Both the position numbers and the translations under genes were made by a program. Positions 3,516 to 26,324 of a stretch of 32,675 bases of DNA are shown in pieces. Below the pieces are notes generated by a model that did not search any database, was not told the origin of the DNA, and worked only from the letters and a program-made list of their open reading frames with translations. The DNA is taken from assembly GCA_007130145.1 (NCBI GenBank), contig SLSY01000139.1, forward strand, positions 1-32,675. The letters are read 5' to 3'. Each line of letters starts with the position of its first letter. Position 1 is the stretch's first letter. This DNA comes from Bacillota bacterium. Lineage in GTDB: Bacteria > Bacillota > Sulfobacillia > UBA8153.

Positions 3516-4463
3516 CTACCCCTTGTGCTGCCCTGAAACCACCGTCAAACCCTCGGACAGTTCATCCAAGATGGCCGCATCCACCAGAGCCTCACGCCAG
3601 CGCTCAGGAAGGCGCGAGTAACCATAGAACGCACCGGTCAGCGCCCCGGTGACGGCTCCCAGCGTATCGGCATCACCTCCGAGGTTCACGGCGGCAACAA
3701 TGGCATCCTCAGCACTATCATTGTTGAGAAAGCACCAGCAGGCAGAGATGAATGTATCCACAACATACGCTGTGCTCTTCAACTCATCGTAGGTTACATC
3801 TTCCAGTGCGTGCAGCTGTTCCACGATGGCTTTGGGCACCACGTCACCCATAATGCCCTGGGCGTGATGAAGAGCCGTATGGTACGCTTCATGACGCTCC
3901 GCCTCTCTACCCACACACACTGCGATCATGGAGCAATAGGCCACAGACAGCAGTTGACACAACGAGCTGGCATGAGTCATGGCGGTAAGTTTCTGAGCCC
4001 AGTGGTCACGCTCGCCCGAGCGGTGCCAATAAGCCAGTCCCACCGGAGCGATGCGCATGAGCGCACCGTTTCCGCACGCCCGCTCACCCAGTGCCTGCAC
4101 TACCAAGCGCCCCGCCTCTTCCCAAACCGGATTCTGGCGGTAGCACTCCAAAGCCATGGCTACCGTATGGCCGATATCCGGGGGATCTGTTTCTTGCCAT
4201 TCCAAGAAGCGTTGGCCAACGGCATCCACAGGGTCTTGGGGATCTTCTATGATCCCCTGGGCCGTAGCGATAGCCATGGCCGTATCATCAGTCCCCTGCC
4301 CCGGTGCCAGCTGCAACCAACCTCCCCCTTGGATGTCAACCAAACGCCCCAGCTTCTCCTTAATGTCATCGCGAGACATGAATTCTGCCGTCGCACCCAA
4401 CGCGTCGCCCATCGCCAGACCCCACATGCCGCCGCGAATCGAGTCCTTCACATTCTGGGCCAT
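3516..4463 (-). CDS. ADP-ribosylglycohydrolase (DraG) family protein
   Basis: Motifs GLAMGDALGATAEF, GTDDTAMAIA and NLGGDADTLGAVTGALTGAFYG. ATG start with SD AGAGGTGG. Confidence 0.9.
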   Translation of the reverse strand: MAQNVKDSIRGGMWGLAMGDALGATAEFMSRDDIKEKLGRLVDIQGGGWLQLAPGQGTDDTAMAIATAQGIIEDPQDPVDAVGQRFLEWQETDPPDIGHTVAMALECYRQNPVWEEAGRLVVQALGERACGNGALMRIAPVGLAYWHRSGERDHWAQKLTAMTHASSLCQLLSVAYCSMIAVCVGREAERHEAYHTALHHAQGIMGDVVPKAIVEQLHALEDVTYDELKSTAYVVDTFISACWCFLNNDSAEDAIVAAVNLGGDADTLGAVTGALTGAFYGYSRLPERWREALVDAAILDELSEGLTVVSGQHKG

Positions 4464-4978: not shown

Positions 4979-5755
4979 TCACTTGCCCTGAAAAGAAGGC
5001 TCTCGCTTTTGCAAGAATGCCTTCATTCCCTCCGTTTGATCCCAGCTAGCGAACAGCTGTCCAAATTCCTCCGCTTCAAAAGCACAGCCCTGTTCCAAGG
5101 TCAGATCCAGCCCACGACCGATGGCGCGTTTGGCCGCGCGTATCGCTAAAGGTCCCTTTCGGGCAATCAAATGACCCAGTTCTTGGCAGGTGACCAGCAA
5201 TTCATCTGCGGGCACCACCTGGTCTACTAAGCCCAGAGCCAACGCGGGTTGCGCCTTGACCAATTCTCCGGTGAAGATGAGTCGTTTGGCCTGACTGCGT
5301 CCAATCAAACGAGCCAAACGTTGCGTTCCGCCAAATCCCGGGATCACCCCTAGATTCACCTCCGGCTGACCCAAACGAGCCTTTTCCGAAGCAATACGCA
5401 TGTCACATGCCATAGCCAGTTCACAGCCGCCTCCCAAGGCAAATCCATTAATGGCCGCGATCACTACCAATGGTGAGCATTCAATCTCGAAAAACGTCTT
5501 CTGCCCCAAATCGGCAAAGGCACGGGCTTCTTCCACGCTCATGTCGGCCATCGCTCCGATATCTGCCCCAGCTACGAAAGCGCGATCACCGCTGCCGGTC
5601 AGAATAGCTACCAGGATCTCCTCTTCTTCACGCAGGGCCGCAAAGACTCCAGAAAGCTCCTCCAGAACCTGACGGTTGAGGGCATTCATGGCTTGGGGCC
5701 GGTCAATGGTCACGGTAGCCAAACGTTCTTTTCGCTCTACCTTTACAAACTCCAC
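4979..5755 (-). CDS. Enoyl-CoA hydratase/isomerase (crotonase) family protein
   Basis: Crotonase motifs AFVAGADIGAMADMS, ALGGGCELAMACDMRIAS, GQPEVNLGVIPGFGGTQRLARLIG. GTG start with SD GGGGGTGA. Confidence 0.92.
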   Translation of the reverse strand: MEFVKVERKERLATVTIDRPQAMNALNRQVLEELSGVFAALREEEEILVAILTGSGDRAFVAGADIGAMADMSVEEARAFADLGQKTFFEIECSPLVVIAAINGFALGGGCELAMACDMRIASEKARLGQPEVNLGVIPGFGGTQRLARLIGRSQAKRLIFTGELVKAQPALALGLVDQVVPADELLVTCQELGHLIARKGPLAIRAAKRAIGRGLDLTLEQGCAFEAEEFGQLFASWDQTEGMKAFLQKREPSFQGK

Positions 5756-5769
5756 GAACTCACCCCCGT

Positions 5770-6618
5770 CTAGTACTGATAGAATCCTTGCTTTGTCTTC
5801 ATACCCAAAAGGCCAGCTCTTACCATGCGCCGCAACAGCGGGCAGGGCCGATACTTTGGATCGCCAAAACCCTCATACAACACGTCCATGATTGCCAAAC
5901 AGGTATCCAGGCCGATCAGGTCAGCCAAAGCCAACGGGCCCATGGGATGGTTCATACCTAGCTTCATGACGGTATCAATATCCTCTTTTGTGGCAACGTT
6001 CTCCATAAGACAGTATACGGCCTCATTGATCATGGGCATGAGAAGACGATTGGCAATGAAACCCGGGTAGTCGTCCACCGTCACCGGCGTCTTCCCCATG
6101 CTCCGACTCAGGTTCGCCACCTCGTCATGGACCTCATCGGCCGTCTGCTGCCCCCGAATCACTTCGACCAATTTCATCAAAGGCACTGGATTCATGAAAT
6201 GCATGCCGATGACGCGCTCTGGCCGCTGCGTAACCGCACCCAGTTCAGTAATGGATATTGATGAGGTATTAGAAGCGAAGATAGTCTGGGGAGGACAGAT
6301 AGAATCAAGTTCCGAAAACAGATCGCACTTGACCTGCGTACGCTCTATCACAGCTTCGATAATGAGTTCCGAGTCACTGGCCGCCCTCAGATCATCAGTG
6401 ACCTCTATCCGTTGGAGAGTGCCTGTGAGATCCTCTTGTGACAGGCGTCCCTTCTCAACACTGCGACGCAGGAACTTCTCAATCCCCTGCCGGCCCTTTT
6501 GGGCCAGTTCCATCGTGAGATCAGTGAGCGTAACCTTGAGGCCTGCCTGGGCCGCAACCTGAGCGATGCCCGCCCCCATTTGACCGGCACCCACCACGGT
6601 GATTCTCTCGATACTCAT
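5770..6618 (-). CDS. 3-hydroxybutyryl-CoA / 3-hydroxyacyl-CoA dehydrogenase
   Basis: Rossmann motif [64 protein letters not shown]. Confidence 0.93.
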
Positions 6619-6633
6619 ACCAGGGCCCCTTTC

Positions 6634-7815
6634 TCATTCCACCCGGATGAGGGTGGCTTCACCTTGACCTCCACCGGAACAGATAGCCGCCAAACCATAT
6701 ATGAGTCCCCGCCGCCGCAATTCGTAAATAAGAGTGGTTAGAATCCGTCCTCCGCTAGCACCAATGGGATGTCCCAGAGCAATGGCCCCACCGTTGACAT
6801 TGACCCGCTCTTCATCCAAACCTTCCATCTTAATGCTGGTAAGGGTCACAGCTGCAAAGGCCTCGTTGATCTCCATTAAGTCCATATCGCTCCAGGACAT
6901 ACCCGCTTTCTCCAAGGCCCGGCGCCCGGAGAGGGCAGGCACTGTTCCCAGTTCATGAGCCTCTCCTGACACCATACCGTGAGAGACAATGGTAGCCAGT
7001 ACGGGAAGCCCGAGAGCCTCGGCGCGCTTACGTGACATCAGGACCAACGCCGCGGCCCCGTCGTTGATGCTCGGAGCATTGCCAGCGGTAATGGTACCCT
7101 CACGACCAAATGCCGGCTTGAGTTTGGCTAACACGTCAAGGCTTGTGTCCCGGCGCGGGCACTCGTCGGTAAGAAAGGGCAGCGCATCACCCTTGCGTTG
7201 TGGCACGTTAACCGGAACCACTTCCGAGGTGAACACCCCTTCATCAATCGCCTTGATGGCTCGCTGGTGGCTGCGCAAAGCCCAAACATCCTGTTCTTCG
7301 CGGGATAATTTGTGTTCACGGGCCATGGTGTTGCCGTGATTGCCCATATGAACATCCGTCACCGGACACCACAGACCATCATGGACGGTAGAGTCCACCA
7401 CTTCTCCGTGACCTAGACGGTAACCAAACCTCCCCTTGCGCAGCAGATAAGGACCCTGACTCATGTTCTCCATGCCGCCGGCCACGATGACCTCAGCTTC
7501 ATTGCTGCGGATCATCATATCGGCCAGATTGACCGCGCGCAGGCTGGAAGCACAAACCTTGTTGATGGTCTCAGCTGGCACGCTGACGGGCAGACCGGCG
7601 ATAATTGCCGCCTGACGGGCTGGCACCTGCCCCGCACCTGCAGCCACAACCATGCCCATCATAACGTTATCCACCGTCTCGGGGTCTACCTCAGCACGCT
7701 CCAAAGCTGCACGTATGGCCACAGCCCCTAGCTGAACGGCAGGAACATCCCGTAGCGCGCCGCCAAACGCACCAAATGGGGTTCGGCAAGCACTGACCAC
7801 TACCGTCTCTTGCAT
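6634..7815 (-). CDS. Acetyl-CoA acetyltransferase (thiolase)
   Basis: Start refined to ATG at 7815 (SD AGGAGG). Active-site motifs NKVCASSLRAVNLA, NVNGGAIALGHPIGASGGRI, AAICSGGGQGEA. Confidence 0.93.
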   Translation of the reverse strand: MQETVVVSACRTPFGAFGGALRDVPAVQLGAVAIRAALERAEVDPETVDNVMMGMVVAAGAGQVPARQAAIIAGLPVSVPAETINKVCASSLRAVNLADMMIRSNEAEVIVAGGMENMSQGPYLLRKGRFGYRLGHGEVVDSTVHDGLWCPVTDVHMGNHGNTMAREHKLSREEQDVWALRSHQRAIKAIDEGVFTSEVVPVNVPQRKGDALPFLTDECPRRDTSLDVLAKLKPAFGREGTITAGNAPSINDGAAALVLMSRKRAEALGLPVLATIVSHGMVSGEAHELGTVPALSGRRALEKAGMSWSDMDLMEINEAFAAVTLTSIKMEGLDEERVNVNGGAIALGHPIGASGGRILTTLIYELRRRGLIYGLAAICSGGGQGEATLIRVE

Positions 7816-7841
7816 ACAAGTCACCTCCTGAATTCTTCAAC

Positions 7842-10846: not shown

Positions 10847-12220
10847 TTATTGCTCAGTAACTATTTCGATGTTGGTTTCGGCTGCCCTGATCACCTGGCC
10901 ATCTTCCAACTGGATTTCCACTACATAGACCGAGGCCTCGGTAGGTAGACGTACAGGCTCTGGCACCACTCTCTTGATACGCCCCCATTTTCCATAATGG
11001 GTGCGGCTAACCACGCGCACCAGAGTGCCGGGCTCAACGGTCGTGGTTTCGTCCGTCACGGGTTCGTCTGCATGAGAAAGCCCCTCCCAGTCAACGTCGG
11101 GCAAAGGAACAATGACTTCCGGGCGGATGGTCCCGGCGCGAATCTGGGTGGCGCCGTTGACCGATACCACCGTTCCTTCATGCTGCTTGAGAAGGTCCCA
11201 AATGCGCTCATGCATGGGCATGGACCCAAAACCCTCTGTGAGCACCACCGTGAGCGCCATTTCTTCCAGTCCGGTAAGACCGATGGTAATCTCGCGCCCC
11301 GCCACTTGGACTAAGTCGATATTATCAACTCCACCAGCAACAATGGCCTTGACTTCTTCGGAAAGGGCCTTTTGCATTGCCTCCAGGGAAACGCGGTTCC
11401 CTCCCACCACCACACATCCGGCGTGCTCGGAGGTGATCATGTCAGCCGTCAACTCCTCGTCCCGCCCGGCGAGAACAACAAGACGACCGTAGGTCTCCCC
11501 GCCTATGCCAAACACTCCCTGCACAAACGCAGCCGCAGTCGTAACTTCGACACTCTCTGCCTCCTCAATGTGGGTCACCTTCCCTGAGATGTAAGCATCC
11601 ACCAGCGTAGGCTTGGCCTTACGCACCAGGGTAATGGTGCCCGTACGCGTGCAGATCTTCTCTATGGTTCCCGCCACCGATGCATAGGCACAGTCCCAAC
11701 TCACCGTCGACGGCGATGCCGCCAGAATCTGGCCCTGCTTGACCTCGTCGCCTTCCTTCACCTGAGTATACATACGCAGCATGCGCGGCCACACATCGAG
11801 CAGCTTCGCCGCCGGTATAAGAACCACTGGATTGGCTGACTTCCCGTCTTCGCGAATGAAGACCCGGTGATTGACGCGAGAGATGAACTCCACCACTCCG
11901 GTTACCGGAGAGGTGATGGTCTTTTGACCGAATGTTCCACTCTGGCGCGCGAGAACAGCGCCACGCTCCACTCGATCGCCCACCTTAGCCTCCATAACCT
12001 CATCCATGAAACTGGGGTTGGCGCGCGCCTTTTTCACCCCGAATTCCTGGGCCATATCCAGGACATACGGATCGCCTGGGAGCAAGTCACTGCGTGCCAG
12101 CAACGTATCGGGTGCAACCTCTTGACCCATCTCTACCAATATCATCCCCGGCAGTGGTAGCCTCCGCGTTCTCTGTACCTTCGCCTGTTCGATGACTTTA
12201 ACCTGAGCATTGGTTGCCAC
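10847..12220 (-). CDS. Uncharacterised protein with repeated barrel-sandwich (lipoyl/biotinyl-like) segments and a C-terminal KOW/SH3-like segment
   Basis: VGDRVERGAVLARQSGTFGQKTITSPVTGVVEFIS and EGDEVKQGQILAASPSTVSWDCAYASVAGTIEKI resemble barrel-sandwich half-motifs. C-terminal VEPGTLVRVVSRTHYGKWGRIKRVVPEP is KOW-like. GTG start directly abuts the upstream TAG. Confidence 0.65.
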   Translation of the reverse strand: MATNAQVKVIEQAKVQRTRRLPLPGMILVEMGQEVAPDTLLARSDLLPGDPYVLDMAQEFGVKKARANPSFMDEVMEAKVGDRVERGAVLARQSGTFGQKTITSPVTGVVEFISRVNHRVFIREDGKSANPVVLIPAAKLLDVWPRMLRMYTQVKEGDEVKQGQILAASPSTVSWDCAYASVAGTIEKICTRTGTITLVRKAKPTLVDAYISGKVTHIEEAESVEVTTAAAFVQGVFGIGGETYGRLVVLAGRDEELTADMITSEHAGCVVVGGNRVSLEAMQKALSEEVKAIVAGGVDNIDLVQVAGREITIGLTGLEEMALTVVLTEGFGSMPMHERIWDLLKQHEGTVVSVNGATQIRAGTIRPEVIVPLPDVDWEGLSHADEPVTDETTTVEPGTLVRVVSRTHYGKWGRIKRVVPEPVRLPTEASVYVVEIQLEDGQVIRAAETNIEIVTEQ

Positions 12221-14032
12221 CTACATCACCCCCCTATCAGCCGTAGCTTCTCGTTCGGGATACGCCTTGAGCGCCTCCATCCATTCCTTGAGACTCCTGA
12301 TCCGTTCATGCTCTTGGGCAGGTAGCATCAGCGGCCGGCCGCGTCCATCCAGAATCAGGCCGACCTCTCCGCCGCGCACCCGGCTCTCCAGAGGCCGATT
12401 GCGTCCCAAGCCGATATCATAGCCAGCTCTTGGCTTCACCACAATATCTACTTCTTCATCTGCCTTCAGGGGCACAACCTTTAAGCTGCCAGCGGTCAGG
12501 CTAAACTCTCCCCGGCCCTCCACGTTAATGTCGGCGATGACTCTTCCCGCATGGGCCTTGCCGACCGGAGCGATGACCGTACCCAGAGGAAGTAAGCATT
12601 CATCGACCAGGAGCTTCTCTGCCTCTTGCTCATTGACCTCAGCCAGGGCTCCCAATTGGGGTAACATGAACTCGGCGTCAAGGAACAACCGGGTGATGCC
12701 CTTGGGCTCCAATGCATCAATGAGAAGCATGGCTGCTTGGGCAGGTCGTGGTGCATGAGCCAGTACGCCACCGCTACCAACAATGGACCCGACACGGTCC
12801 AGACTGACCAAAGGCTGCCCGGTGGGCTTCTGATCGAAGACCTCGTCCATGGTTCGTTCGATGCGGATACCCTTTAGCGTCACCGCCAGCTTCATGTGGT
12901 GTTCAAAGGAAAGCCGCATGGCCTCGCGGGCCAATGCATGCTCTACCATGAGTTCCTCAATGGTCTCCGGAAGGCTTTCGGGTCTGATCATTTTGTTGAA
13001 GTTCAAGTTGCGCAGCTCACTCTCCGAGAACTCAAAGGGCAGCCAAGAAAGGATTCGTTCGGGGCTGGCTTGCACCAGGACGTTGCCAAGACTGTAACTC
13101 ATGCCCAGGTTAGCACTGACGGAGCGGTGATACTGACCCCCGGTAACGGAGAATACGTCAGTGGTGGCTCCGCCAATGTCCAGCCCCAGCACGTCCGTAT
13201 CATGCAGCGTTGCCAGCCGCTCCATCATCTTGCCCACCGCTGTTGGTGTGGGTTGAATGTGGCCACCGGCTACTGTCAGTAAGTCCTGATAACCGGGAGC
13301 ATGAGCCATGACATGATTGAGGAACAGACGATGAATCTCATCGCGCACCTTGTCCAGGACTTCTTCCTCCAGCTTGGGACGAATGTTATCCACAACATAC
13401 ACGTCCATCAACTCACTTAGTATGGTCGTGACAAACTCGCGGGCCTGCACGTTGCCAGCGTAAATCACGGGCATGCGGTATCCTGCACCGGCCTTGGGCG
13501 TTGGATTAGCAGCGGCAATGTATTCTGCCATACCCCCCACATGACCAATGGCACCCTCGTCAGTGCCCCCTGTAAGCAAAATCATGTCGGGGCGCAGTTC
13601 GCGCACACGCCTGATACGCTCTACTACCAAACGGGCGTCATCCATGGCAATGACGTCTGTGACAACGGCACCGGCACCTAACGCCGCTCGCTCCGCACTT
13701 TCTGCCGTCAGACTGCGCACAAGACCGGTAACCAACATCTGCAGTCCCCCGCCTGCCGAGGACGTCGCGACCACGAGATCAACCCCTCGATCACTTTCAC
13801 CCTTCGTGATGATCTGCCCCTCTTCCAATAACGGGCGCTGGCACTGCTCCTGCAGGCGACGTAGTGCCCGATCGATGCCGATCATGACATTCTGGGTGGG
13901 TTTCTCAACCGTCGTGGCTGCTACAGCCCGGCCCAACAGCTGCATGCCGTCGTCGCTATAACCAAACAACAGGGCCTTGCTAGTGGTACTTCCCACATCT
14001 ATTGCCAACACATGGTTTGCTCGCTCCACCAT
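12221..14032 (-). CDS. GlmL/MutL-family ASKHA ATPase (glutamate mutase accessory-like), orphan
   Basis: Phosphate-binding motifs AIDVGSTTSKALLF and GLDIGGATTDVFSV; adenosine motif VGSGGVLAHAP; MILLTGGTDEGAIGHV typical of the MutL/GlmL family. Confidence 0.85.
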   Translation of the reverse strand: MVERANHVLAIDVGSTTSKALLFGYSDDGMQLLGRAVAATTVEKPTQNVMIGIDRALRRLQEQCQRPLLEEGQIITKGESDRGVDLVVATSSAGGGLQMLVTGLVRSLTAESAERAALGAGAVVTDVIAMDDARLVVERIRRVRELRPDMILLTGGTDEGAIGHVGGMAEYIAAANPTPKAGAGYRMPVIYAGNVQAREFVTTILSELMDVYVVDNIRPKLEEEVLDKVRDEIHRLFLNHVMAHAPGYQDLLTVAGGHIQPTPTAVGKMMERLATLHDTDVLGLDIGGATTDVFSVTGGQYHRSVSANLGMSYSLGNVLVQASPERILSWLPFEFSESELRNLNFNKMIRPESLPETIEELMVEHALAREAMRLSFEHHMKLAVTLKGIRIERTMDEVFDQKPTGQPLVSLDRVGSIVGSGGVLAHAPRPAQAAMLLIDALEPKGITRLFLDAEFMLPQLGALAEVNEQEAEKLLVDECLLPLGTVIAPVGKAHAGRVIADINVEGRGEFSLTAGSLKVVPLKADEEVDIVVKPRAGYDIGLGRNRPLESRVRGGEVGLILDGRGRPLMLPAQEHERIRSLKEWMEALKAYPEREATADRGVM

Positions 14033-14060: not shown

Positions 14061-15299
14061 TTAGAATCCTCCACAACGTCCACAATTGGTACATGACGGA
14101 TTGGGATTGACGTACACGCGCCTGGCATGCAGCAGTTGATCAACGGAAGCCAATTTTGCCAGGCGTACCGGCATCCAGGTGGCCACGGCAAACACCAAAG
14201 CCGCCATGAGAGCCGCCCCTACATAGATTCCCCAGGTGATCTCCAGGGTCGTTTCCAGTTCCCGAGCCGCCAAAGCCACGGCCAACGTTCCTAAGATCCA
14301 GCCGGTCACCAACCCAGCCCCGGATAGAATGGCTCCCTCCAAGGTCAAGAGCAGCCCAATCTGGCTACTTTCCATTCCCAGAGCCTTCAAGGTGCCCAAC
14401 TGGCGCTTACGGCGTAAGAACGCCAATAGCAAGAGATTGAAGACCCCCAGTACGGCGAGCAGAGCACCCATTCCCATCAAAACCCGTACCGGTCCCATGG
14501 CCCGACTACTCATACGCGTCAACATCGTTTCACCCGCCAGTTGGGTCATTAAGTGATCCTCACGCCCTAACCGTCCCAGGACAGACCGTTGCACCAGGTA
14601 AGGATTCCGATCATAGCCAAGCCAGCCGTTGGGCGCGACGCCACCGGCTGTGAACACCGTACGGGCCACCAGCGGTACACTGAAAGAGCCATCCGGATCC
14701 TCATAGACACCCCTCACCTTCACCCAAACGTCCTGCCATCCACCGTCGCCCCGGTACCCCAGCCAAACCCTATCGCCGGTCTTGTAACCCCATGACTTGG
14801 GGAAAAGTCCCACGCCATCTTCATCGCGCACATCTTCTATGAGTTCGGAAGGCAACCCAACATGAGCGAAGAGGGGAACCGGGAATGTCGTGCCAATGGC
14901 CATCGCCGCTCCCTGGGAGGTGTAAACCTCATGAACGACCGCAACATCGCTATAGCGCATCCCCAAACGGCTTGCCAGGTCTGATCTCAGCTGCCCATCC
15001 ACGATGATGTTGGGGCCGTAGAGAATGATCTCAGCCGGCGCCCATATCTTCTCAGCTTGTGCGCCCTGACTCTCGATGGAAGCCCGCGTCGCCGCGCTGG
15101 CCACCAGGTGAAGAGCCACTGCCAAACAGACCACCAGTGCCAAGAATACGCTGCGGGCCCGGCTACGCTTGAGTTGCCGCACTGACAACGGAAATACCAG
15201 CCGGGCATCCTTGGCCAGCCGCTCTCGCGCCGCCGGATCACGGATCATCGCAAACATCCGCCGGGCCCATGCACTAATCGCATCAAAGAAATCTATCAT
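14061..15299 (-). CDS. FtsX/MacB-type ABC transporter permease with Cys-rich C-terminal tail
   Basis: Start refined to ATG 15299 (MIDFFDAISAW). Extracytoplasmic domain and C-terminal FtsX-like TM region (LLAFLRRKRQLGTLKALGMESSQIGLLLTLEGAILSG). Ends SCTNCGRCGGF. Confidence 0.85.
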   Translation of the reverse strand: MIDFFDAISAWARRMFAMIRDPAARERLAKDARLVFPLSVRQLKRSRARSVFLALVVCLAVALHLVASAATRASIESQGAQAEKIWAPAEIILYGPNIIVDGQLRSDLASRLGMRYSDVAVVHEVYTSQGAAMAIGTTFPVPLFAHVGLPSELIEDVRDEDGVGLFPKSWGYKTGDRVWLGYRGDGGWQDVWVKVRGVYEDPDGSFSVPLVARTVFTAGGVAPNGWLGYDRNPYLVQRSVLGRLGREDHLMTQLAGETMLTRMSSRAMGPVRVLMGMGALLAVLGVFNLLLLAFLRRKRQLGTLKALGMESSQIGLLLTLEGAILSGAGLVTGWILGTLAVALAARELETTLEITWGIYVGAALMAALVFAVATWMPVRLAKLASVDQLLHARRVYVNPNPSCTNCGRCGGF

Positions 15300-16020
15300 G
15301 AGCGGTACCTCCCCCGCTATCCTGCATCCACCGGGCCTCTCCTTTTGCTCCCACAATCGTACCATCCAACATGTGAATGGTCACGTCTGCGTAGGGCACA
15401 AAGCCCTTATCGTGAGTCACCACGACGAACGTCTGACCATATTCGCGGTTGAAGCGGCTGAACAACTCCATGACCTGCTCCTTGCTCTCAGAGTCCAGGT
15501 TCCCCGTCGGTTCATCCGCCAAGACCACCGCCGGGCGATTGGCCAGAGCCCGGGCAATGGCTACTCGCTGCTGCTGCCCGCCGGACAACTCATAGGGAGA
15601 ATGCGTGGCCCGATCCGCCATATCCACTTCCCACAAGAGCTCCATGGTACGATCGTTCACCTCACCCGGAGATAAACCAGCCATCCGCAAAGGAAGAGCA
15701 ACATTTTCCGCTGCTGTTAAGTCAGGAAGGAGATTGAAAAATTGAAACACGATACCTAGCTGGTGACGTCGTAGGCGTGCCAATTCATTCTCTGATAGCT
15801 GGCTGTAACGTTTGCCGTTAAGAACGACCTCCCCGTGCGTCGGCCGGTCCAGCCCACCCAATATGTTGAGCAGTGTGGTCTTGCCGCATCCGGAAGGTCC
15901 TGCAATCAGCATGAACTGACCCGCTTCCACTTCCAACCGGATGTCTTTGAGTGCATTGACTCCCTCTCCAACCAGAAACCGCTTGCTAATCGAATGGCAT
16001 TTGAGAACGGGCTCACTCAT
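15283..16020 (-). CDS. ABC transporter ATP-binding protein (LolD/MacB type)
   Basis: Walker A GPSGCGKTT, signature LSGGQQQRVAIARAL, Walker B AVVLADEPTGNLDS. Confidence 0.95.
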   Translation of the reverse strand: MSEPVLKCHSISKRFLVGEGVNALKDIRLEVEAGQFMLIAGPSGCGKTTLLNILGGLDRPTHGEVVLNGKRYSQLSENELARLRRHQLGIVFQFFNLLPDLTAAENVALPLRMAGLSPGEVNDRTMELLWEVDMADRATHSPYELSGGQQQRVAIARALANRPAVVLADEPTGNLDSESKEQVMELFSRFNREYGQTFVVVTHDKGFVPYADVTIHMLDGTIVGAKGEARWMQDSGGGTAHDRFL

Positions 16021-17365
16021 GATCTAGCACCTCCCTAGTGGTAGCACGGACAGCATACCAAGCCGGCAAGACACCCGCCACAAGTCCCGTTGCTAGCGCC
16101 AGGCCCAGAACCTGCCCGAGTGCGGACAAAGCTGTGGCACTCGCCTGCACAGCCGTTACATCACTGGCAAAATAGAACAGCACGAGAAAGAGCATGACAA
16201 CACCATATCCCACAAGAGCGCCGAGCAGAGCGAATACCGCTGTTTCACTCAGAAGCAACACGAATAACTCCCGCCCCGATGCCCCAATCGCTTTCAAGAC
16301 GCCCAGCTCGCGCTGGCGTTGTGTCACCAAAATGAACATATTGGTGGATGCCATCATGGCCGATAAAGCAAAGGCCATGACCACGTAGGCTCCGGAAACA
16401 TCCGGGGCCTCCGCCGGCGGCATTGAACCGGACATACGGGCCAGTTCCGGAACAGATAGAATCGTAGCCCTGCTCACTTGCTCAGACAAACGCACCTGCG
16501 TTTGATCTGCCAGGAACATACTGTCCACGGTCACGCCTACTTGATGCACGTATTGCAGATTCTTTCCCCCACTGGCCTGGGTAAAGATCTCGTGCCAAAT
16601 GCCGGACGGAACGAGCACATCTTTGTTTTCCAAGAATATCTCTACGACGTCTTCCTCCACATACTCCCTGTCGATCACAAAAGCATAGTCACCGATGCGT
16701 TCCAGTTGGAACCCGTGACGAGCCTGGTAATCAAAGACCGTGCCTTGGGCCGTATGCTCCACTATACTCGGCACTTCAATGCGCAGCGTATCACCCCAAC
16801 CTCCGTGGGGCGTCGCCTGACTGTTGGTAACGCACACCCACTGATGCTGCTGCTGTGAAGAGAATAAGTCAAGTTCCCACCGCCTCTCATCCACCTCAGC
16901 ATAGCGCCCCCTCAAAACGGTCTGGACTATCACCTCACCGTTGGCGTCCAAAACAAAGACCGGCAAGGCCAAGTATGGATAGACGCCCGTCACCTGCGCA
17001 ACTTCACCAAAACGCAGCAATTCGTCCATTTCAAACGCTCTACCCTCACGTTTTAGGTAAGGGGATACGGTAATGTCGGAAAAGTACGTGGCCAGATCAT
17101 AACGATAGACCAAGTCATCACCGCCGGTAGCAAGCCGATACACCTCAGGCTCATCGGGAGGACGGAAAGGAAATCCGTCCGCATACGCCACGATGTCGGC
17201 GCCGGCAAACTGTCGGTAGGATGAGAAGGCATGACGCGCGTACCCTGACCCGGTCGCTGCTGCGCCTGTGAAGACGCCGGCGGCCAGAGCGATGCCGACA
17301 ATGGCAAGCAGGCTGCGACTGATGTTTCGTCTTGCATTGACAAAAGACAAACCAACAAAGAGCAT
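16013..17365 (-). CDS. FtsX/MacB-type ABC transporter permease
   Basis: N-terminal TM, large extracytoplasmic domain, FtsX-like segment NMFILVTQRQRELGVLKAIGASGRELFVLLLSETAVFALLGALVGYG. Confidence 0.88.
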   Translation of the reverse strand: MLFVGLSFVNARRNISRSLLAIVGIALAAGVFTGAAATGSGYARHAFSSYRQFAGADIVAYADGFPFRPPDEPEVYRLATGGDDLVYRYDLATYFSDITVSPYLKREGRAFEMDELLRFGEVAQVTGVYPYLALPVFVLDANGEVIVQTVLRGRYAEVDERRWELDLFSSQQQHQWVCVTNSQATPHGGWGDTLRIEVPSIVEHTAQGTVFDYQARHGFQLERIGDYAFVIDREYVEEDVVEIFLENKDVLVPSGIWHEIFTQASGGKNLQYVHQVGVTVDSMFLADQTQVRLSEQVSRATILSVPELARMSGSMPPAEAPDVSGAYVVMAFALSAMMASTNMFILVTQRQRELGVLKAIGASGRELFVLLLSETAVFALLGALVGYGVVMLFLVLFYFASDVTAVQASATALSALGQVLGLALATGLVAGVLPAWYAVRATTREVLDHE

Positions 17366-21861: not shown

Positions 21862-22860
21862 TCATTGCAGTACCATCGAACCCTTCAGCGATTGGACCAG
21901 GAGATCCACACAGGCTTTAACATCACCTGCATCCACCATTTCCGAAGGCGAGTGAATGTAGCGGCAAGGCACGGAAATCACACCCGCAATAATACCGGCT
22001 CGCGAAAGCTGCATGGCCGCTGCGTCGGTCCCGCCCCTTTCCAGAACCTCCAACTGGTAAGGGATCTTGTTTTCTTTGGCTATCTCCACCAGGTGTTTAC
22101 GCAAAGCGGGATGACAAATAAGGCTACTATCCTTAACCTTAATGGCAGCCCCGCCCCCAAGGGACACTTCCATGATGTGACTTTTGGGCGTGTCCCCCAC
22201 GCGAGTCACATCACAGGCAATACCTATCTCAGGGTCTACCCCGTAAGCAGCTGTTCGAGCTCCCCGTAGACCCACTTCTTCTTGCACGGTGAAGACGAAA
22301 TAGACATCATGATCGCAAGCTCCCAACTGGCGCAGGGTCTCGATGAGGACCACGCAACCTATGCGGTCGTCCATAGCTTTGGCTACCCAGCGCTCGCCCA
22401 TATCAAAGAGGGGGCCGTAGAAAACGGCCATGTCCCCAATCCCCACGTTTTCGCTGGCAGTCGCCTTATCGCTAGCTCCGATATCGATAAAGAGCTTGGT
22501 CACTTTCAGTTCCTTTATGTCGTCGAGGTGTTCAGTATGAATCACCCCGCTGGTACCGTTGGCGAATATCACCCTCTTGCCCAGAAGTGTCGGAGGGCTC
22601 CAGCCACCAACCGGGGCAAAGCGCAAGAATCCCTTGTCATCAATGGATGTCACGATAATACCGATCTCATCCATGTGCGCCGCCAGCATTACCTTCTTTC
22701 CCTTACCATTACCTTTCTTGCGAGCGATGAGATTACCCAAGGCGTCCACTCGCACTTCATCGGCAAGCTCCTTGATCTCTTCCTCGATCATCTGCCGCAC
22801 CGGGCCTTCATCGCCGGCGGGACCATAACTCTCGACCAACTTCTTGACCAGATCCTTCAT
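21862..22860 (-). CDS. M42 family aminopeptidase/cellulase-like metallopeptidase (paralogue 1)
   Basis: AAHMDEIG, AMDDRIGCVV, VQEEVGLRGA, ACDVTRVGDTP, CRYIHSPSEM. Confidence 0.92.
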   Translation of the reverse strand: MKDLVKKLVESYGPAGDEGPVRQMIEEEIKELADEVRVDALGNLIARKKGNGKGKKVMLAAHMDEIGIIVTSIDDKGFLRFAPVGGWSPPTLLGKRVIFANGTSGVIHTEHLDDIKELKVTKLFIDIGASDKATASENVGIGDMAVFYGPLFDMGERWVAKAMDDRIGCVVLIETLRQLGACDHDVYFVFTVQEEVGLRGARTAAYGVDPEIGIACDVTRVGDTPKSHIMEVSLGGGAAIKVKDSSLICHPALRKHLVEIAKENKIPYQLEVLERGGTDAAAMQLSRAGIIAGVISVPCRYIHSPSEMVDAGDVKACVDLLVQSLKGSMVLQ

Positions 22861-23879
22861 GGCCTAAAACCTCCCTCGATGCTCTTGAGGAATAGGGATA
22901 ACAGTTTAACGGTATTCTTGAAATCATCCTGGCAGGCTACAGATACGGGGGCATGAATATAACGACAGGGTACGGACACGCCCACGGTTGGAACCCCAGT
23001 ATGGGCGAGACTCATGCGACCGGCGTCGGTCCCTCCTCCTGTTGTACGCCGAAACTGATAGGGCAGCTCGCTGTGTTCGGCGAGACGAATGAGTTCCTTG
23101 AGCATTTTTCGGTTGGGAATGGTGGCCGCATCCATCACAGTAAGGGCGGGACCCGCTCCCAAATTGGTCACGTGGAACTCCGGCTCAACTTCAGCCAATT
23201 CATTGGACACTGTCCCTTCCAGAGCCACTCCCATATCAGGATGAACGCGGTGAGCTGCTATGGCCGAGCCTCTCAACCCAATCTCCTCCTGAACAGTAAA
23301 GCAGGCATAGATAGGCAAAGAGGTCTGCTCTTTGAGCAGCGAAATGAGAACTGCACACCCCACCCGATCATCCATAGCCTTGCCCTTGACAAAGCCATCT
23401 CCAAATTCGCTATATTGGGTGTCAAACACCACAACATCGCCCAGCTTGACTCGCTTCTGGGCGTCCTCCTTATTCTTCGCTCCTATGTCAATGTACATGT
23501 CGCGCATGCGCACGGGGTGCTGACGTTCTCGTGGTTCTTGCAGGTGAATCGGTTTGCTGCCGATGACCCCGGGCAATTGCTCTTTACCTACCCGGACCGT
23601 CTTTGACAATAATACCCGATCATCTATGCCTCCGGCCTTGCGAAATCGCAAGAATCCACTGCGCTCAAACCCTGTGATGATCATACCCACTTCATCCATG
23701 TGCGCGGCAAACATGATCTTGGGTCCCGGAGCATCCGGATTCTTGATGGCGATCATGTTTCCAATGGTGTCGCTTTCAATCACATCGACCAGACCCTCGA
23801 TCTCCGCGCGGATGATAGCTCTCACCGCTTGCTCATGTCCGGCTACACCCGGTGCTTCGCTCAACATCTTCAGGACCAT
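22857..23879 (-). CDS. M42 family metallopeptidase (paralogue 2)
   Basis: AAHMDEVGMI, AMDDRVGCAV, VQEEIGLRGS, ALEGTVSNELAEV, CRYIHAPVS. ATGA overlap with paralogue 1. Confidence 0.92.
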   Translation of the reverse strand: MVLKMLSEAPGVAGHEQAVRAIIRAEIEGLVDVIESDTIGNMIAIKNPDAPGPKIMFAAHMDEVGMIITGFERSGFLRFRKAGGIDDRVLLSKTVRVGKEQLPGVIGSKPIHLQEPRERQHPVRMRDMYIDIGAKNKEDAQKRVKLGDVVVFDTQYSEFGDGFVKGKAMDDRVGCAVLISLLKEQTSLPIYACFTVQEEIGLRGSAIAAHRVHPDMGVALEGTVSNELAEVEPEFHVTNLGAGPALTVMDAATIPNRKMLKELIRLAEHSELPYQFRRTTGGGTDAGRMSLAHTGVPTVGVSVPCRYIHAPVSVACQDDFKNTVKLLSLFLKSIEGGFRP

Positions 23880-24925
23880 ACTAATCCCTCCACAAAACCG
23901 CGGTTGACAGCGGCAATGAAAAACGCCAATAACTTCCCCGCCTTCTCCACATCATCCAAGTGCAATGTCTCCACCGAGGTGTGCATGTAGCGCAAGGGTA
24001 CGGAAACCAAACCGGTGGGTACCCCATGACGAGAAATCTGCATGGCCCAAGCATCGGTACCAGTCTGAGCAGGTGCCACATCCACCTGAACCTCAATACC
24101 TGCATCCTTGGCTGCTTGCTCCAGCAACTCATAGACTCTGGGAGCTATATTGGGGCCCATCGTAATCACCGGACCCTTGCCAAGCTCAGATACCAGATCC
24201 TCCGGCTGTCCCGGACCATCACCATGGCATACATCGATAGCGATGCCGATGTCCGGCTCAAGGCCGTATGTACTCACAGTCGCACCTTTGAGTCCTATCT
24301 CTTCCTGCACGGTAGCCACGGCATATACGTCGGCGGTGATGCAGAGTTTCTCGAGCCATTGCAGACAGCTATGAATCACTGCTACACCCGCCCGATCATC
24401 AAAGGATTTACCAGCCAAAAAATCGTTGGCCAGCTCGGTGACGTCTCGTTGAAACGTGATGACATCTCCGATTTCCACCACGTCGACCAGACGCTCCTGA
24501 GCGAGTCCTACATCAATGAACAGCTCCTCCATCTTAGGCGCCTTGTCCTCTTCCCCGGCGGAGAGAAGATGAGGTGGCTTGGTGCCGATGATCCCTGCTA
24601 GTTGACGCCGACCATGGACTGTCACTTCCATGCCCGGCAGGATGCGAGGATCAATCCCACCCACTTGAGTAAACCGAATATAGCCACGTTCATCTATCTT
24701 GGTCACCATCATGCCAACTTCGTCCATATGAGCAGCCAACATTACGCTAGGGCGCGGTTCTTCACCTACACCTCTGCGCTTGGCGACAAAGTTTCCCAAA
24801 ACATCGGTGCTCATTTCGTGAACCAACGGCTCCCACGCAGCGCGCAAGGACGAATGTAGTCCATGCTCGAATCCGGCCACTCCGGCCGACTCCGAGAGAT
24901 TCTTGAGAAGTTCCTTTACTTGCAA
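23870..24925 (-). CDS. M42 family metallopeptidase (paralogue 3)
   Basis: Start refined to TTG 24925 (SD GGAGG, protein LQVKELLKNLSESAGVAGFE). AAHMDEVGMM, SFDDRAGVAV, VQEEIGLKGA, AIDVCHGDGPG, RYMHTSVETLHLDD. 10-bp overlap with paralogue 2. Confidence 0.9.
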   Translation of the reverse strand: MQVKELLKNLSESAGVAGFEHGLHSSLRAAWEPLVHEMSTDVLGNFVAKRRGVGEEPRPSVMLAAHMDEVGMMVTKIDERGYIRFTQVGGIDPRILPGMEVTVHGRRQLAGIIGTKPPHLLSAGEEDKAPKMEELFIDVGLAQERLVDVVEIGDVITFQRDVTELANDFLAGKSFDDRAGVAVIHSCLQWLEKLCITADVYAVATVQEEIGLKGATVSTYGLEPDIGIAIDVCHGDGPGQPEDLVSELGKGPVITMGPNIAPRVYELLEQAAKDAGIEVQVDVAPAQTGTDAWAMQISRHGVPTGLVSVPLRYMHTSVETLHLDDVEKAGKLLAFFIAAVNRGFVEGLVWS

Positions 24926-25001
24926 CCTGTTGCCTCCTTTCCCGATACAACCCGAACTTGCCAACACACGTAGTATTCTTCTTCTTCTCACCTTCTCCTT
25001 T

Positions 25002-26324
25002 TCACCGACGGCCAACGATACGGCACGGTATCCCCAGTTGACTTTCCAAGACATGATAGGGCTCGCCGAGGAGATCGCGTCCCCACGCATCGAAGGGTTT
25101 GGGTGGGAGCAATACCAGGTCATGACCGATGACCGCTTCCCGCAGCTGCTGACGGATATCACCGAGGGTCAATAGCCCGGTGCATGCTATGGAACCGCCA
25201 AAGAAATCGGGTTTGACCCCAAGCAGAAGGGCTTGCTGACCCCCCGCGCTCAAACCCCAATTTAACAAAGGTTTAGCGCGCACAGACGTAACGATAAGAG
25301 GACGCTTTGCACCGTAAGCCTCAATGGCATCCTGGATGTCCTGGATATCGTCTGGATCTAAATCATAGTCCATAATCAGCCCCTCACGTGCTGATGGCTT
25401 CCAGTCCAGTGTCCTTCCGTCAGAAAGCTCAATGCACTCACAACCCTCCTCACCCAAGAGCCGGAATGCCTCTACTCGCGAGAAAGGAGGAACCCCGTCA
25501 ATGCGAACAATGCGATCTCCGCGGCGAAGACCACACTGCCCGGCCGGAGAATCGGGCATGACGCCGGTCACGACAGAGCGCAAGTCCACCGGCAAACTGG
25601 GCTCAAGGAGTACAGGCACCCCACATCTAGAAGAGATCTTCTCGACCACATCGGCCAGATGATTCCTTGTGTCCGGGGACGGAAGTAAGGACGCAGGAGC
25701 CCGTTTCGTAAAGCCCGGTTCGAATATACGTATGCAACGTGCACCGTGTTCGGCCAAAAAGAGAGCGGTTTCATGTATGTCCTCATAACCCGTAATGTGA
25801 GGCATGGCTACGATGCTTCCCTCGAAACAAAGGTCATGAACACCCAACCATTTCAAGTTACGGGGAACTGCCACCGGATCGCTTTCTTTCATCACCCGTT
25901 GCCGCGTTTTTTTATCCACAGAGTTCAACGATACCATCAGTTCGATATTCAGATCTCTCAACTTCTCCACCGCATCCTGCGTGAGCAATGACCCGTTGGT
26001 GGTCATCTGTACCGTCACCTGTGGATGCATCTCCCTGAGCCGGCTCAACACGTCCCAAACAGCAGCGTAAAGCAAGGGTTCCCCTTCTTTGATGCGAGTG
26101 GTCGCTTCTCCCATAACGACCTTCGCATCGGTGTTGAGCCAGTCCAACATGGTGACAACATCTTGGCGTGGCAAGTCAGGTAACGTGTAAACCTCGACAC
26201 CCGGAGGATTGAATCCATGGCTGCAAAAAACGCACTGAACATTGCAGCGTGATGTCAAGGGCAATACTCCGCGGCTTGCGGCCTGGTACAATACGGCGGG
26301 CAAGGAAGGCCGCTCAGAAGTCAT
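25002..26324 (-). CDS. Radical SAM protein with PDZ domain and DUF512-like C-terminus
   Basis: Start refined to ATG 26324. CNVQCVFC (CX3CX2C); PDZ-like SVVTGVMPDSPAGQCGLRRGDRIVRIDGVPP; DUF512-like KPDFFGGSIACTGLLTLGDIRQQL...LLPPKPFDAWGRDLLGE. Confidence 0.8.
   Translation of the reverse strand: MTSERPSLPAVLYQAASRGVLPLTSRCNVQCVFCSHGFNPPGVEVYTLPDLPRQDVVTMLDWLNTDAKVVMGEATTRIKEGEPLLYAAVWDVLSRLREMHPQVTVQMTTNGSLLTQDAVEKLRDLNIELMVSLNSVDKKTRQRVMKESDPVAVPRNLKWLGVHDLCFEGSIVAMPHITGYEDIHETALFLAEHGARCIRIFEPGFTKRAPASLLPSPDTRNHLADVVEKISSRCGVPVLLEPSLPVDLRSVVTGVMPDSPAGQCGLRRGDRIVRIDGVPPFSRVEAFRLLGEEGCECIELSDGRTLDWKPSAREGLIMDYDLDPDDIQDIQDAIEAYGAKRPLIVTSVRAKPLLNWGLSAGGQQALLLGVKPDFFGGSIACTGLLTLGDIRQQLREAVIGHDLVLLPPKPFDAWGRDLLGEPYHVLESQLGIPCRIVGRR

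Follow-up and report, generated by a model that had tools for sequence, protein, structure and literature searches.

A MutL-family ATPase and its adjoining partner protein in a Bacillota genome: association with membrane-protein genes rather than B12-dependent mutases

The window (the whole stretch of DNA analysed, 32,675 nt, contig SLSY01000139.1 of the Bacillota assembly GCA_007130145.1) contains two adjoining ORFs, here termed M and P, on the reverse strand (Table 1). Both ORFs, encoding 603 and 457 aa, are present as the original prediction had described them, and the close junction that it claimed can be read directly from the sequence: GAT AGG GGG GTG ATG TAG / GTG GCA ACC on the reverse strand, where the stop codon of M abuts the GTG of P and a purine-rich Shine–Dalgarno (SD) sequence lies within the end of M. 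Upstream, on the same strand, is a run of genes encoding a TPR protein, an FtsX-type permease, an ABC ATPase and a second FtsX-type permease (19338–14061), followed 28 nt further on by M. At the other end, P converges on a formate–tetrahydrofolate ligase gene. The FtsX–ABC–FtsX genes resemble those of the LolCDE and MacB FtsX-type ABC transporters, but their matches fall below the family cut-offs, and no transporter of these types is known to depend on an ASKHA ATPase. The permease nearest to M (14061–15365) has a Cys-rich tail (NPSCTNCGRCGGF), which is odd for the family. A promoter and terminator scan gave a result at chance level. Elsewhere in the window there are three M42 peptidase genes in a row (21862–25162), and an ADP-ribosylglycohydrolase gene (3516–4463) near a butyryl/acetoacetyl-CoA pathway cluster (4979–7824).

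Table 1. Features of the M–P locus and the genes upstream of it
Feature	Coordinates	Strand	Basis
P, 457-aa partner; barrel-sandwich domains, central alpha/beta domain, KOW-like C-terminal domain	10847..12220	-	Pfam, profiles, AlphaFold2
KOW-like C-terminal domain of P, residues ~398–457	10847..11029	-	Profile matches, AlphaFold2, fold search
M–P junction; SD inside last codons of M, TAG abutting GTG	12218..12232	-	Sequence
M, MutL-family (PF13941) ASKHA ATPase, 603 aa, 'extended' clade	12221..14032	-	Pfam, ASKHA motifs, tree
C-terminal extension of M, ~residues 479–603, missing from GlmL	12224..12598	-	Alignment with the genome's own GlmL
FtsX2, FtsX-type permease, 28 nt upstream of M, probably same operon	14061..15365	-	PF02687; order kept in eight relatives
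LolD/MacB-type ABC ATPase	15283..16020	-	PF00005; best NCBIfam LolD/FtsE/MacB, below cut-offs
FtsX1, FtsX-type permease	16013..17365	-	PF02687
TPR protein heading operon-like run; homologues linked in L237, L238	17383..19338	-	Pfam

The whole length of M is covered by the Pfam MutL family (E 5.8e-114). As originally noted, both ASKHA phosphate motifs and the adenosine motif are kept, namely phosphate-1 DVGSTTS at residue 12, phosphate-2 DIGGATTD at 285 and adenosine GSGGVL at 419. With GlmL/MutL (the methylaspartate mutase accessory protein) and Or-4 (of ornithine degradation), both in PF13941, M thus shares an ASKHA core of about 450 residues and all three ATP-site motifs; it differs from them in forming its own clade, in its C-terminal extension, in having P as a fixed partner and in lacking mutase neighbours. 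The extension makes M about 120 residues longer than GlmL; it has conserved columns (alignment A4) and no Pfam matches up to E 10. Among solved structures, a profile search at E 0.1 yielded no relative of M, and hydropathy predicts no membrane spans in either M or P.

Comparison with the NCBIfam models places M below all the relevant cut-offs (GlmL, 218.6 against 475; Or-4, 198.3 against 600; glmL_fam, 160 against 204). When 92 MutL-family proteins were placed in a tree, built by a quick tree search and with some long branches, a single branch with SH-aLRT 100 separates 62 M proteins from 30 of the GlmL type. The original description of M as GlmL/MutL-like therefore stands at the level of the superfamily (PF13941), where Pfam places it, and lapses below that level, as M has its own clade, its own C-terminal domain and scores short of the GlmL cut-offs.

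No B12-binding domain is encoded on the window's contig, in keeping with the earlier observation that the window lacks a B12 mutase. The search for such enzymes elsewhere in the genome, which had been proposed as a check, found an OraE (NF040743, 1104 bits) and three methylmalonyl-CoA-mutase-type (acyl-CoA mutase) loci, all on other contigs. On these grounds M could serve a B12-dependent mutase from another part of the genome, as a chaperone or reactivase of the GlmL type to which P would contribute as a delivery subunit; the place of M in Pfam MutL and its identity of about 35% to the genome's own GlmL are consistent with this. The genome, however, already has a dedicated protein of this kind, its GlmL/Or-4-like gene lying on another contig beside a probable ornithine racemase gene (L006:13063–15500) and among chemotaxis and ribosomal-protein genes. 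The helper of methylmalonyl-CoA mutases, moreover, is MeaB and not a MutL protein, which also counts against a reactivase role for M. Of 29 GlmL-type loci, 19 had an OraE-like aminomutase sequence, and of the more than 100 M/P loci none had one (Fisher 8e-16), the M/P loci mostly being displayed with more flank than the GlmL-type loci in this count. Linked mutase genes in relatives, which would have argued for a mutase accessory after all, were thus seen at none of these M/P loci, and the orphan status noted originally is supported. Because of the phylogeny, the linkage and the NCBIfam cut-offs, the reactivase reading is rejected as highly improbable, and the sequence comparisons allow us to say with considerable confidence that M would not act as a mutase reactivase.

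The pairing of M with P is repeated within the genome and far beyond it. The 2.37 Mb metagenome-assembled genome carries three M–P pairs, each overlapping or abutting: that in the window and two in tandem on contig C122 (L005). The latter locus (L005:1–10482) reads c7, M, P, c2, a phage-type integrase-like gene (6112–7020), M and P. At least 553 relatives were found, and pairing was scored at 88 sites in 80 named records from Bacillota, Bathyarchaeota, Poribacteria, Marinimicrobia, Planctomycetota, Armatimonadota, Cloacimonadota, WOR-3 and others. P immediately follows M at 73 of these sites; the 15 exceptions are mostly in Poribacteria and Fimbriimonadales, and all 12 of the exceptional genomes that were tested have exactly one M elsewhere. 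Two pairs are carried by a record titled Symbiobacterium thermophilum (L029). With three copies in this genome, hundreds elsewhere and a median gap between M and P of 0 nt (103 pairs), pairing by chance is excluded. Evolutionary distances among the M proteins correlate with those among their partners (r=0.876, 103 pairs), shared descent contributing to the value, while 1000 shuffles peak at 0.15. At 17 of the 18 loci with two pairs, swapping the partners worsened the fit, a clear sign that specific M and P partners have co-duplicated. The fixed 457-aa partner foreseen in the original prediction is borne out by these figures, and it is very likely that M and P form an obligate functional pair. 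The window pair belongs to a third, separate M–P lineage in its class.

P-like proteins without an M of their own adjoin FtsX–ABC genes at L247:3976–5091 and L238:1–1074. A possible fused architecture was also seen in class relatives (e.g. G058:C31, G036:C1 and G016:C117), in which the N-terminal two-thirds of MutL (about 300 residues) lies within open frames of 1220–1360 aa.

Pfam gives weak RnfC_N and NqrA_N matches for P, whose barrel-sandwich domains resemble the N-terminal barrel-sandwich domain of those proteins. P differs from them in having no other Rnf/Nqr domain, and no adjoining rnf or nqr gene was seen. Its identification as an Rnf/Nqr subunit was rejected (rnfC, 30 bits against a cut-off of 246; nqrA, 26 against 321). 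An RnfC-type Fe–S protein was likewise rejected, with CxxC in only one of 85 P sequences, as was a biotinyl/lipoyl carrier, with MKM in 3/85 and DKA in 5/85, counted anywhere in the sequence.

The AlphaFold2 model of P has a pLDDT of 91.5, and its central alpha/beta domain bears a conserved NGATQIRAG motif. A fold search against the PDB gave no global match (TM-score ~0.1); what matched were separate pieces of P, to NusG, to RNA-polymerase barrel-sandwich inserts and to SPT5 KOW, the best weak fold match being 2xhc. Profile searches also matched SPT5/NusG KOW. P may accordingly be compared with the NusG and SPT5 KOW proteins through its KOW-like C-terminal domain, but it differs from them in domain set and gene context. 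P has a new domain architecture. That M–P acts on transcription or translation, with P as a NusG/SPT5-like factor and M as its regulator, draws on the fact that these are the top profile and fold matches of P, and window-type pairs adjoin DprA–TopA–TrmFO genes in L241 and L244. The matches, however, span single small domains; of the NGN plus KOW architecture of NusG/SPT5, only KOW-like and barrel-sandwich stretches were found in P, with no NGN match. This reading also leaves unexplained the linkage to DUF6754 described below, and we consider it improbable, although the KOW domain would fit nucleic-acid or ribosome binding as well.

Clustering of the neighbours of P reveals a conserved set consisting of c2 (about 112 aa), c5 (DUF6754, PF20539), c6, c3 and c4. 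The gene order is M–P–c2–c5–c6–c3–c4 in Marinimicrobia, and M–P–c5–c6–c3–c4 or its mirror in Planctomycetota, Scalindua and Bathyarchaeota. Six loci of class relatives (L134, L137, L138, L139, L133 and L143) have the order c7–c5–c6–c3–c4–M–P–c2–M–P. Hydropathy predicts median numbers of membrane spans of three for DUF6754, six for c6, two for c3 and five for c4. Among 61 genomes, P was found in 29 and DUF6754 in 24, all 24 being P-positive (p 2e-12, ignoring relatedness); DUF6754 was found in none of 14 control genomes and in 25 of the 26 P-bearing genomes reached via named records. Three genomes (G009, G030 and G046) carry P without DUF6754. The original prediction had hoped that a fixed partner could reveal the function of GlmL; this expectation is not supported, as M is tied to membrane-protein genes and not to B12 enzymes.

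In the c3 model (pLDDT 93.6), an N-terminal helix is followed by an alpha/beta domain and then by a long C-terminal helix, and the flanking charges place the alpha/beta domain on the predicted outer side of the membrane. A fold search of the PDB with c3 gave no global match and nothing that reached E 1e-3, a profile search of solved structures gave nothing convincing for DUF6754 or c3, and P, DUF6754 and c3 showed no homology when compared with one another.

The membrane module also occurs apart from M–P. Four standalone DUF6754–c6–c3–c4 modules with the same gene order are present in this genome (L129, L130, L131 and L132), each on a different contig and with no M–P nearby. A relative (G014) has 27 DUF6754 matches, and the complete genome of Ca. 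Fermentithermobacillus carboniphilus has 14, against five P genes. From these extra copies, it follows that few M–P pairs coexist with many membrane modules. Amidohydrolases are somewhat over-represented among the neighbours of the extra modules (11/116 against 3/111, p 0.05), an excess too weak to name a substrate.

In pairs of the window's type, the neighbours are often transporters. Permease–ABC–FtsX genes followed directly by such a pair on the same strand were found at eight loci from several families (L234, L236, L237, L238, L246, L247, L248 and L252). At L242–L244 the pair precedes two MsbA-type ABC genes, and at L239 and L241 it has no adjoining transporter, so the link is frequent and not universal.

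Taken with the gene context, the predicted properties of the two proteins suggest that M–P probably acts on membrane complexes. On balance, we lean towards a cytosolic ATPase–adaptor unit that would serve inner-membrane complexes, rather than B12-dependent mutases, by powering, gating or assembling them. M, as an actin-fold (ASKHA) ATPase, would hydrolyse ATP; P would bind M physically and relay the conformational change that ATP drives in M to a membrane complex, at its cytoplasmic face. The target in most genomes would be the DUF6754–c6–c3–c4 module together with the small protein c2, and in the window it may be the FtsX–ABC–FtsX transporter of the same gene run. A parallel may be drawn with the PilM/GspL-type actin-fold proteins, cytosolic ASKHA proteins of pili and secretion systems that, like M, are linked to inner-membrane proteins; they belong to another ASKHA family, no pilin, PilN/O or secretin gene was incidentally noted at the M–P loci, and M–P occurs in archaea too.

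What such a unit does at the membrane is less certain. Transport is favoured by the presence of polytopic proteins, by the ABC context and by the high ratio of modules to pairs, and M–P may tentatively be supposed to energise or gate transport rather than assembly. It could instead act as a chaperone in the assembly or quality control of membrane complexes, in which case the ATP cycle of M, acting via P, would load or release subunits and power no transport. Chaperones and reactivases are common among ASKHA ATPases, and a few pairs alongside many modules (five P genes and 14 DUF6754 matches) is what a shared chaperone would show, but M–P occurs without DUF6754 in some genomes, and no result separates this role from an energising one. 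Taken alone, a chaperone is somewhat unlikely, and nearly as likely as transport. Returning to the ATPase–adaptor unit, a more specific and still speculative possibility is that M–P, c2 and DUF6754–c6–c3–c4 make up an undescribed transport or assembly machine of bacteria and archaea, in which one or a few actin-fold ATPase–adaptor pairs energise several interchangeable modules and which, in this lineage, is also coupled to an FtsX-type ABC transporter.

In the literature searched, which did not extend to subscription sources, no paper mentioning DUF6754 and no description of orphan MutL-family proteins or orphan GlmL was found, and to our knowledge an ATPase of this type has not previously been tied to such a membrane machine. 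Under the database name 'MutL', which denotes a B12 enzyme accessory protein, annotation would be misled in many uncultured lineages. What the data point to is a widespread membrane system of several genes that has no name. Its conservation in lineages ranging from Bathyarchaeota to Marinimicrobia speaks for a basic function, and the M–P pair offers a defined, expressible handle on what that function may be.
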